From Kyrpidia sp. (GTDB taxonomy: Bacteria > Bacillota > Bacilli > Kyrpidiales > Kyrpidiaceae): 57,295 bases of DNA. The stretch spans positions 1 through 57,295 of the forward strand of contig JASBVV010000032.1 of assembly GCA_029960885.1 (NCBI GenBank). Direction: 5' to 3'. A model generated the notes under the pieces. That model worked only from the letters and a program-made list of their open reading frames with translations, did not search any database and had not been told where the DNA came from. Each line of letters opens with the position of its first letter. Position 1 is the stretch's first letter. The position numbers were made by a program, and so were the translations under genes. This document shows, piece after piece, positions 22,055 to 40,020 of this stretch.

Positions 22055-22363
22055 TTGACATTTCGAAAAATTCCCGTCGCCAATCGGGGGGAGATTGCCG
22101 GACGCATTTTTCGCACCTGTCGAGCCCTGGGCGTCGGGACCGTGGCCGTGCACTCCGAGGCGGACAAGGGAGCGGCCCGCGATCGGGAAGCGGATGAAGC
22201 GGTACTTTCGGGCCGCCGACCGGGAACGAGGATCGTTCGCGCGGCCCTTCTTTGCCAGGACGGCAGCGACATGGGGTCCAACAGATCCATCCACTTTCCC
22301 GCCCGGGGGTTCCCGGGCCGAGGTCTCCCGTCGAAGGTCCACCGGGGCCGATCCCGGATCTGA
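22055..22363 (+). pseudogene. Biotin carboxylase, N-terminal fragment (YngH/LiuD-like)
   Basis: From the TTG at 22055 (GGGGAGG upstream) the first about 50 residues are a clear biotin carboxylase N-terminus: '[20 protein letters not shown]', then '[10 protein letters not shown]' and '[10 protein letters not shown]'. After about 22216 the similarity stops, and the frame runs through unrelated sequence to a stop at 22363. A full subunit has about 450 residues, so about 400, including the ATP-grasp and C-terminal domains, are gone. The following biotin carrier protein gene is intact. The remnant probably belonged to an acyl-CoA (methylcrotonyl- or propionyl-CoA) carboxylase. Confidence 0.75.
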
Positions 22364-22440
22364 AAGGAGGCGAAATCCTGGTGGGGAGACTGGTCTGCTC
22401 GAAAGCCGGTTCGGGCGGATTCATTGAACCAGGAGGAACG

Positions 22441-23631: not shown

Positions 23632-24253
23632 ATGGAGCTCACCGTGGATTCGGCAGAGTTGACCCATCGGATCGCCGGGATGATTCAGGAAGTGGCGAGC
23701 GGCTCCCGAACCCAGGTGCGGCAATCGGAAGACAGTGCGGCGGCGGTTCGATCTCTCGACGAACTCCCCCCACTTGACCCTCAGGCACGAGGGGTGAAGC
23801 CGCTCAGCCCTCCACCTGGGTCTGAACGGGCACCTGATGAATTCGAGAGTCGATTCACCGCAGGTTGTCAACCTCAGCGTTTTTCAAACTGGTAGTCATC
23901 GACCCTCACCGTTTTTTCTGTGGATTGCCGTCCACGAGGTGATCTCCGGCATTGCCGCACAAACGAACCTGCTGGCTCTGAACCGCTATCGAGGCGGCCC
24001 GGGCGGTCGGGGCTTCGTGGTGGTGGCGGACGAGGTGCGCAAACTGGCGGAACAGTCCAAGGGATCGGCGGATCAGATCGCGGAACTGGTGGAGACCATT
24101 CAAACCGACACCGGCCGTTCGGTGGAGGCCATGGGCATGGTCACCCGTGAGGTGCGATCGGGCATTGAAGCGGTCCAGGAGGCCGGGCGGGCGTTTGACC
24201 ACAGTCGGACGGCCCAAGAGCTTCAGGAACTGATCCACCGGTTCAAGGTGTAA
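23632..24253 (+). pseudogene. Methyl-accepting chemotaxis protein fragment, interrupted by an inverted piece of a neighbouring gene
   Basis: The 5' part encodes an MCP signalling-helix segment ('RIAGMIQEVASGSRTQVRQS', then 'EDSAAAVRSL'). From about 23749 to 23934 the sequence is instead the reverse complement of the CNNM gene end at 25681-25869. MCP sequence resumes with 'EVISGIAAQTNLLALN' and 'GRGFVVVADEVRKLAEQS' to the stop at 24253. At 'LLALN' a two-base loss gives 'RYRGGPG' instead of the usual AAIEAARAG, a further frame scar. The sensory and transmembrane N-terminus is missing. It is clearly non-functional. Confidence 0.85.
23749..23934 (+). repeat. Inverted repeat copy A (inside the MCP remnant)
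   Basis: These about 186 bases match the reverse complement of 25681-25869 with only a dozen or so mismatches and small gaps. A long shared run covers 'AAGCCGCTCAGCCCTCCACC' and its continuation. It replaces roughly 60 codons of the MCP. The other copy is the native 3' end of the CNNM gene plus about 55 bases downstream. Confidence 0.85.
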
Positions 24254-24492: not shown

Positions 24493-25815
24493 TTGGACAC
24501 ACCTGGTAGTTTGTTTATCAAGATTCTGGCTGTGTTCGGTTTGGTATTGGTGAACGCCTTTTTTGTGGCGGCGGAATTTGCATTGGTGAAGGTCCGCTCG
24601 ACTCGATTGCAGCAGCTGGCGGAGGAGGGGCAACTGCGGGCTCGTTTCGCCCAACGGGTGGTCTCGAGTTTGGATGCGTACTTGTCGGCGACGCAACTGG
24701 GCATCACTTTGGCGTCCCTGGGGCTGGGCTGGCTCGGTGAGCCGTCTGTTGCCGCTGTGTTAAAGCCGTTGTTTAGCTTGACCGGATTGCCCGATGCCAT
24801 TGTCCACACCGTTTCGTTTATTGTCGCTTTTTCCCTGATCACCCTGCTGCACATCGTGTTGGGAGAGTTGGCGCCGAAATCGTTCGCCATTCGGATGGCG
24901 GAATCGACCGCTCTCTGGACAGCCCTTCCCCTCGCGTATTTCTACAAGCTCATGTATCCCGCCATATGGCTGCTCAATTCCTTTGCCAACCTGTTGCTGC
25001 GATGGATCGGGATTGAACCGGTGGTATCCGGTCATCAGGCGGCGTATTCCGAAGAAGAGTTGTTGTTGCTGCTGTCCGAAAGCCACCGCAGCGGATTGAT
25101 AGACAGTACGGAAAAAGCCCTCATGGATAACATCTTTCACTTCTCGGATCGCGTCGCTCGGGAGATCATGGTCCCTCGGACGGACATGGTCTGTCTCTAT
25201 CTGGATCGTTCCGTGGAGGAGAATTTTGAGATCGCCCGGGCCAACCGGCACACCCGGTATCCGGTTGCCGTGGAGGACAAGGATCACATCGTCGGATTCA
25301 TACACGTGTCCGACCTGTACGTTCAAGGACTGCAGGCCGGACAGCGGGATCTCCATCCGATTATCCGCGAGGTCCTGCGGGTTCCCGAGTCGATGGAGAT
25401 CAGCCGGGTGTTGCGCCTGATGCAGAAACAACGCGGCCAGATTGCGGTGGTGGTGGACGAATACGGAGGTACGGCGGGGCTGATCACCCTTGAGGACATC
25501 TTGGAAGAAATCGTCGGGGAGATCCAAGACGAGTTCGATGAGGAAAGGCCTCCGATTGAGACCGTGGGTGAGGTCACTTATGTGGACGGCCGCGTCCTGG
25601 TTGAAGACATCAACGATCTGTTCGGCTTGGAGATCGACGATTCCGAAGTGGATTCCATCGGCGGATGGGTGGCCGCTCAATTGGACGGCAATCCACAGGT
25701 GGGAAAAACGGTGAGGGTCGATGACTACCAGTTTGAAATCGTCGAGGTTGACAACCTGCGGGTGAATCGACTTCGAATTCATCAGGTGCCCGTTCAGACC
25801 CAGGTGGAGGGCTGA
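24493..25815 (+). CDS. CNNM/CorC-family transport protein (hemolysin family, DUF21-CBS)
   Basis: A 440-residue membrane protein. DUF21/CNNM domain with three to four hydrophobic segments (about 1-190, including '[18 protein letters not shown]' and '[16 protein letters not shown]'). A CBS pair follows (about 215-335, '[14 protein letters not shown]' and '[20 protein letters not shown]'), then a CorC_HlyC domain (about 350-435). Family members such as Bacillus MpfA affect Mg2+ efflux; the 'hemolysin' name is historical. It starts at a TTG (24493) after GGGGATG. Its last 45 codons form half of the inverted repeat shared with the MCP remnant. Confidence 0.93.
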
Positions 25816-25869
25816 GCGGCTTCACCCTCATGCCTGAGGGTCAAGTGGGGGAGTTCGTCGAGAGATCGA
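25681..25869 (-). repeat. Inverted repeat copy B (3' end of CNNM gene)
   Basis: This is the native counterpart of copy A at 23749-23934, in opposite orientation and about 1.75 kb away. It covers the end of the CorC_HlyC domain and about 55 bases beyond the stop. It includes a hairpin ACCCTCA/TGAGGGT at 25824-25841 that may act as the CNNM terminator. The coding frame is intact here, so this is the source copy. Confidence 0.85.
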
Positions 25870-31979: not shown

Positions 31980-33081
<1,102 letters not shown>

Positions 33082-37330: not shown

Positions 37331-37344
37331 GGGGGGGGGGGGGG
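37331..37344. repeat. Run of 14 G
   Basis: A mononucleotide tract of 14 G (37331-37344) lies in non-coding sequence between the gene remnants and the rhodanese promoter, about 75 bases upstream of that promoter. Such tracts are prone to slippage and to base-calling error. Confidence 0.9.
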
Positions 37345-37419
37345 TCTTTTTCCCATTCCCGGGTGCCTGTGAAAGAGTCAAAAGGCGGAACACCCTGTGG
37401 TCCGTGTAGGCGATTTCAG

Positions 37420-38332: not shown

Positions 38333-38727
38333 ATGTTTCACTATACCGTGACGACCGACAAATCGGTGGATGAGTCCGTCAAGGCTCTGGAAGAGGCGTT
38401 AAAAGAACGCCGTTTAGAAGCACGCGCTGGTGAGGATGGCCTGTACCCGGTACAGATCAGACACCTTTGCCACTGGCATCCGAAGGGACAGGATAATCGA
38501 TCTTGTAGTTTTTGATGAGTCAGGCTTTCTGCTGGTCATCCTGTTTTCTGCCATGTAAAATCGTCGTTTATCGGGACGGGGATCAGACGAAGATCGGTTT
38601 GCCGAGGCCGACGATGCTGCTGGGCCAGGCATCGGAAGACCCCGGGTTGCGAGAGATTGCCGGGCGCGTGGAGGAACAATTGTCTGCCGCGGTCAACGTG
38701 GCCGCGGGACAGTCGCGGCGGGGGTGA
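38333..38727 (+). pseudogene. DUF302 family gene split by an inverted thioredoxin-family fragment
   Basis: The 5' end gives a DUF302 N-terminus ('FHYTVTTDKSVDESVKALEE' then 'ALKERR'). The 3' end gives the DUF302 C-terminus in another frame ('LPCKIVVYRDGDQTKIGLPR', then 'EIAGRVEEQL'). Between about 38416 and 38551 the sequence aligns with the reverse complement of 39798-39926, the middle of the ResA/TlpA gene. On the minus strand it reads 'SDLYRVQAILTSACF' against ResA 'ADLYRVQAIPTSVF'. About 50 DUF302 codons are replaced. The gene has a good GGAGGGGG site and would yield only a truncated peptide. Confidence 0.82.
38416..38551 (-). repeat. Inverted, diverged copy of a ResA/TlpA gene segment
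   Basis: Matches the reverse complement of 39798-39926 at roughly 70 percent by eye, with shared blocks such as CTGTACCCG-TACAGATC, TCGATCTT-TAGTT and GGTCATCCT. Divergence is much higher than in the MCP case, so the source may be a different TlpA-family paralogue. Confidence 0.7.
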
Positions 38728-38731
38728 ACCC

Positions 38732-39453: not shown

Positions 39454-40020
39454 GTGGCCGGCAAGCGCACCAGCGGCATCGGATTCACCCTTTTCGTCGT
39501 CGTGGTGGTCCTGATCGCCGTGGCGGTGGTGATGAACACGCGGCAGATGAACAGCTTCGGAGAAGGGAGTGCGGGGGGCGGCACCGCACTTCCCATCAAG
39601 GGGTATCTGGCTCCGGATTTTACCCTGAAGAGCTTCGAAGGGCAGAGCGTGACCTTGTCCCTTGAGCGGGGCAAACCGGTGTTTCTGAATTTCTGGGCAT
39701 CCTGGTGCCCCCCTTGCCAGGCGGAGACGCCGGATTTGGTGGAGATGCACAAGAAATACGGGGATAAGATCGCCTTTTACGGCATTAATCTCACCCACGA
39801 GGATGACCGACAAAAGGCTCTGGATTTCATTCGGAACTATAAGATCGACTACCCGGTGCTTTCGGACGTGGAGGGGAAGGTGGCCGATCTGTATCGGGTA
39901 CAGGCGATTCCCACCAGTGTGTTCATCGGCTCCGACGGCAAAATCGCGGAGTTGGTCCAAGGCATGCTGACCAAGCAGGACATGGACAGGCTGTTTCAGC
40001 AACTTGAATCGGCCAAGTGA
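39454..40020 (+). CDS. resA: Thiol-disulfide oxidoreductase, ResA/TlpA family
   Basis: A 188-residue membrane-anchored thioredoxin-fold protein. An N-terminal helix (about 10-27) is followed by the AhpC/TSA-Redoxin domain with active site Cys-Pro-Pro-Cys in 'FLNFWASWCPPCQAETPDL' (near residues 79-82) and the cis-Pro in 'VQAIPTSVFIG'. ResA reduces apocytochrome c thiols outside the membrane, fed by CcdA, whose gene follows. It starts with GTG (39454) after AGGGGGGAG. Its middle part (39798-39926) is related to the inverted insert in the DUF302 gene. Confidence 0.92.
   Translation: MAGKRTSGIGFTLFVVVVVLIAVAVVMNTRQMNSFGEGSAGGGTALPIKGYLAPDFTLKSFEGQSVTLSLERGKPVFLNFWASWCPPCQAETPDLVEMHKKYGDKIAFYGINLTHEDDRQKALDFIRNYKIDYPVLSDVEGKVADLYRVQAIPTSVFIGSDGKIAELVQGMLTKQDMDRLFQQLESAK

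Follow-up and report, generated by a model that had tools for sequence, protein, structure and literature searches.

The window analysed here, 57,295 nucleotides of a Kyrpidia sp. draft genome, carries inside a chemotaxis receptor (MCP) gene a 187-bp patch that matches, in inverted orientation, the end of the neighbouring CNNM gene. A second inverted patch lies in the same window and a third elsewhere in the draft, and all three are rich in small insertions and deletions. On balance, we lean towards reading these patches as misoriented, error-rich fill or chimeric sequence in a mixed-species draft, not as part of the living genome; genuine template switching in the cell is the main alternative, possible but less probable. 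The window is one contig (C30) of G000, a 2.04-Mb draft in 102 contigs that is 86.4% complete. It was compared with two closed genomes of the same genus, G001 (3,384,766 bp) and G002, and with a draft of the same family, G003; the locus is present in all of them.

An inverted gene end inside the receptor gene

The features at the locus are as follows.

23662..23747, + strand: MCP remnant left of patch 1; matches G001 283997-284082 with 77% identity and no indels; codon-position differences 5/4/11
23748..23934, - strand: patch 1, inverted CNNM gene end replacing 210 bp of MCP sequence; 93% identity to the reverse complement of 25682-25869
23935..24253, + strand: MCP remnant right of patch 1, signalling domain (PF00015 match), with an internal 3' deletion
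24493..25815, + strand: intact CNNM/CBS/CorC_HlyC gene, 440 aa (Pfam PF01595, PF00571, PF03471)
25682..25869, + strand: source of patch 1, comprising the final 134 bp of the CNNM frame and 54 bp downstream; the coding part agrees with the relatives

Patch 1 aligns with the reverse complement of its source at a local alignment score of 147; the highest score among 300 shuffles was 13. Over its 187 bp, 5 substitutions and 6 small indels separate the two (one 4-bp deletion, one 1-bp deletion and four 1-bp insertions), the single-base indels falling mostly within homopolymer runs. An earlier note on this DNA had described such a copy, at 23749-23934 against 25681-25869 with about a dozen differences, and the alignment bears it out. 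The note had also stated that the insert includes the CNNM stop codon with DNA beyond it, and that a similar length of MCP sequence was swapped out; both hold. The stop codon lies at 25813-25815 of the source, and the MCP match to G001 ends at 23747 and restarts at 23935, with 210 bp of MCP between these points in G001.

At the coding-part sites where patch 1 differs, the host CNNM copy has the relatives' state, which points to copying from the CNNM gene into the MCP gene. The note had suggested comparing the locus in related genomes: the relatives have an uninterrupted MCP, and in G001 an intact 576-aa gene is flanked by the genes for an enoyl-CoA hydratase and for CNNM. Judged against these relatives the patch 1 state is derived, and that is all the comparison establishes; it does not tell mutation from artefact.

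A mobile element or dispersed repeat at both places would account for two copies in the window. However, apart from the patch the genome has this sequence only at the CNNM end, and the three relatives hold no full copy; moreover, one of the two copies closes the reading frame of a conserved gene, and native sequence was replaced, not split. The lack of further copies effectively refutes this explanation, in agreement with the note. Gene conversion, which the note had offered alongside template switching, is rejected on the lack of homology between the insert and the MCP segment it replaced (91.5% of random segments score as well). No Rfam match was found in the window that would indicate an RNA element. 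A direct match between 22311-22399 and G001 258144-258232, considered as another patch, is instead a dispersed repeat of intergenic type, with diverged copies in all four genomes and no Rfam match.

A receptor gene with further losses

That MCP sequence resumes on both sides of the patch, as the note had it, is correct, but the gene is not otherwise whole. Deletions of 2 bp and 10 bp lie just right of patch 1, the two pieces stand in different frames, and compared with the G001 gene about 297 N-terminal codons are gone and part of the 3' end is deleted. By this comparison the MCP in the window is a remnant that lacks, besides the stretch taken by patch 1, the N-terminal half and some of the C-terminus; these further losses may mean that the gene is really in decay.

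From 20 to 43 kb of the window, several more genes are likewise absent or present only as remnants. Gene loss in the lineage of G000 is likely, though it does not account for patch 1. One of the remnants, at 22055-22363, is of a biotin carboxylase gene whose G001 copy is intact (457 aa). A run of about 13 G lies at 37331-37345, in a stretch between deleted genes.

Two further inverted patches

Comparison with G001 revealed a second inverted patch in the window, inside a DUF302 gene, and a third on another contig. The features around patch 2 are as follows.

38333..38415, + strand: DUF302 gene, left part; 27 of 27 codons open; codon-position differences to G001 4/1/15; DUF302 assigned by Pfam on the G001 protein
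38422..38545, - strand: patch 2, inverted fragment of a thioredoxin-like gene; 88% identity to G001 307130-307255, 77% to the host's own copy
38549..38730, + strand: DUF302 gene, right part, open to its end; codon-position differences 7/2/21 over 38549-38693
39454..40020, + strand: thioredoxin-like (AhpC-TSA/ResA-like) gene, Pfam PF00578, with the host homologue of the patch 2 source at about 39835-39960

The homologous source gene of patch 2 lies 1.3 kb away, and 124-133 bp stand in place of 143 bp. Patch and G001/G002 agree at 21 sites and patch and host copy at only 2; a three-branch comparison, with 21, 2 and 8 changes on the branches, groups the patch with G001/G002, which makes its donor relative-like. 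Patch 3 (contig C15, 19003-19229) lies inside spoIVA. Its 227 bp correspond in inverse orientation to G001 1779267-1779497 and occupy the place of the 233 bp at G001 1779315-1779547. It differs from G001 by 11 substitutions in 227 bp, against 23% in general, and is bordered by 54 and 52 bp identical to G001, runs that are missing at patches 1 and 2. Patch 3, too, is probably from a relative's DNA.

In about 200 kb of G000 anchored on G001, patches 2 and 3 were the inverted patches found; patch 1 is additional to this survey, its source being poorly conserved in G001. Exact inverted matches of at least 18 bp within 10 kb came from patches 1 and 3 only in 486 kb of G000, and the same scan of 420 kb of G001 gave two short single matches. 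A scan for clusters of small indels was too noisy at about 74% identity.

All three patches replace native sequence with an inverted copy of a nearby one (0.05-2 kb away), which is what template switching leaves behind. Under that explanation, a growing strand leaves the MCP template, crosses to the opposite strand at the CNNM end 2 kb away, copies about 187 nt there and returns about 210 bp further on, the differences being later neutral decay or the product of error-prone synthesis. The process needs no homology, and no mobile element is seen; the patch states are derived relative to the relatives, the MCP gene has other deletions in a lineage that lost many genes, and origin from the cell's own strand holds for patch 1. 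It does not hold for patch 2: a switch to the own strand would not yield a patch nearer to G001 and G002 than to the host copy, as patch 2 is, and patch 3 probably did not come from the cell's own strand either. Template-switch and quasipalindrome-associated mutations (examples in PMC7954356, PMC7202029) similarly have a nearby inverted copy supplanting native sequence, but they are short-range, whereas the patches span 120-230 bp from up to 2 kb away and carry many indels.

Differences inside the patches, signs of selection outside them

Over a combined 538 bp, the three patches carry 27 substitutions and 21 small indels, an indel-to-substitution ratio of 0.78, against 0.029 (about 1 to 34) in a 208-kb alignment of G000 and G001; this background is mostly coding, so that some indel excess is expected in dead DNA and local comparison is the stronger test. 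Locally, the error profile inside the patches is unlike that of the flanks. At the patch rate, 11.4 indels would be expected in the MCP pieces and 2 are present (P 0.0009), the events compared being few (8 for patch 1); both fall within 269 bp of the right MCP remnant, whose aligned pieces have codon-position differences of 5/4/39. Similarly, the 106 bp flanking patch 3 show 0 differences to G001 where 10.7 would be expected (P 2e-5). Beyond patch 3, SpoIVA (TIGR02836) has an open frame of 416 codons in which 398 residues are identical, and its codon-position differences are 17/5/186.

The gene pieces around the patches thus look selected, strongly so for SpoIVA and by a third-position bias for the DUF302 and MCP pieces. 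Had the differences inside the patches accumulated by later decay, the broken genes surrounding them should show it as well, which disfavours this part of the template-switch account: the indels are concentrated in the patches, and the flanks of the broken genes are clean. Error-prone synthesis fares no better, as we know of no polymerase that makes about 9% errors in one synthesis, whereas about 9% errors with many indels are usual for raw long reads.

Signs of mixing in the draft

The starts of contigs C45, C74 and C15 are identical to G001 over 54, 54 and 53 bp, against a background of 23% substitutions. Such starts would follow from a k=55 assembly graph sharing nodes with a co-occurring G001-like organism. 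Moreover, C45 and C74 overlap (C45:1-686 and C74:1-686) over 686 bp at 85% identity, and C20 and C3 over 852 bp at 85.6%. Both overlaps are clean alternative sequences, so that the bin, although its estimated contamination is low, seems to combine at least two sibling species. Within the window, an isolated 2-bp deletion at 32494-32555 frameshifts an otherwise conserved pdhA gene (pyruvate dehydrogenase E1 alpha), which is likely a sequence error. The start of contig C43 (4-187) repeats C45:59488-59667 at 92% identity, the differences clustering at one end.

Artefact or recombination

Under the assembly-artefact reading, the draft would break inside the MCP gene and the assembly would add a misoriented, error-rich piece there, from gap filling or from a chimeric or foldback read. 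The length added would be near that of the true missing stretch, and the true MCP would have its native sequence at this place. A filler that keeps the estimated gap size would give the near-matched lengths of inserted and replaced sequence (187/210, 124-133/143 and 227/233). We infer that the patches are fills, by what program or read type they arose, and that native MCP sequence occupies the site. We judge an artefact the better bet than template switching because of the indel excess in the patches, the selection on their flanks, the two sister patches, one of them clearly relative-like, and the signs of a mixed draft. Against it stand the donor of patch 1, which is the host's own DNA, the flanks of that patch, which lack runs identical to G001, and the other losses of the MCP gene. 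In the approximately 40% of the G000 genome that was read, none of the stretches missing from MCP, DUF302 and SpoIVA turned up intact elsewhere, a weak result. The weak point of the artefact reading is that we know of no single artefact that explains noise, inversion and donor together. Such noise is rare in short-read assemblies, and given the fidelity of phi29, multiple displacement amplification alone would not bring many indels.

Known artefacts offer partial parallels. Faulty sequence where gaps in draft genomes were closed has been described in general terms (PMC9575681). It resembles the patches as wrong, error-rich sequence that sits between two good pieces of contig and is about as long as the gap, whereas misorientation is, for the patches, our own reading. 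Among chimeras of multiple displacement amplification, 406 of 475 were inverted, 337 of these within 10 kb (PMC1855051). These are likewise inverted joins of nearby segments, but each involves one join and each patch two.

Of the processes that the note had proposed, template switching thus stands as a possible but less favoured explanation, behind the artefact. Another route is short-patch double illegitimate recombination, in which a short single strand, the cell's own or a relative's, anneals at microhomologies and replaces a similar length. Harms et al. 2016 reportedly described this process, with short heterologous segments of intragenomic or extragenomic origin substituted, and to that extent the patches are alike. 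The roughly length-matched replacement and the relative-like patch 2 agree with it, as do the presence of comEC and the apparent absence of dprA, whose loss would favour the process: DprA suppresses it in Acinetobacter baylyi. G001, G002 and G003 have the dprA gene; in G000 it was not found, and sucD and topA are contiguous there on contig C74 (4477-4669), with 193 bp between the aligned parts against 1717 bp; given the doubts about the draft, this loss needs confirming. Ectopic DNA would, however, be expected from anywhere and in either orientation, whereas all patches are inverted and lie within 2 kb of a homologous source, and they are larger than those of the described process. Furthermore, the junctions of patch 1 offer at most a few bases of microhomology, with the ancestral sequence reconstructed, and the indel excess is left unexplained. 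We consider this route very unlikely. A combined scenario strikes us as improbable: a gene-losing relative of G001 without dprA would acquire inverted, roughly length-matched patches of 120-230 bp, indel-rich copies of its own or a relative's DNA at the homologous place, through a mutagenic, gene-breaking short-patch template switch. Loss of mutS or recJ is rejected as a cause, both genes being present.

Meaning for the organism

A simple check for inverted patches in other drafts would look for an indel excess inside, selection in the flanks and, at contig ends, runs identical to a relative. Real patches would record a strongly mutagenic process of patch copying, for which we know of no counterpart. 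If, as we favour, they are artefacts, then the organism itself does not carry spoIVA, the DUF302 gene and perhaps the MCP gene as pseudogenes, and gene loss should be claimed from this draft only with caution.
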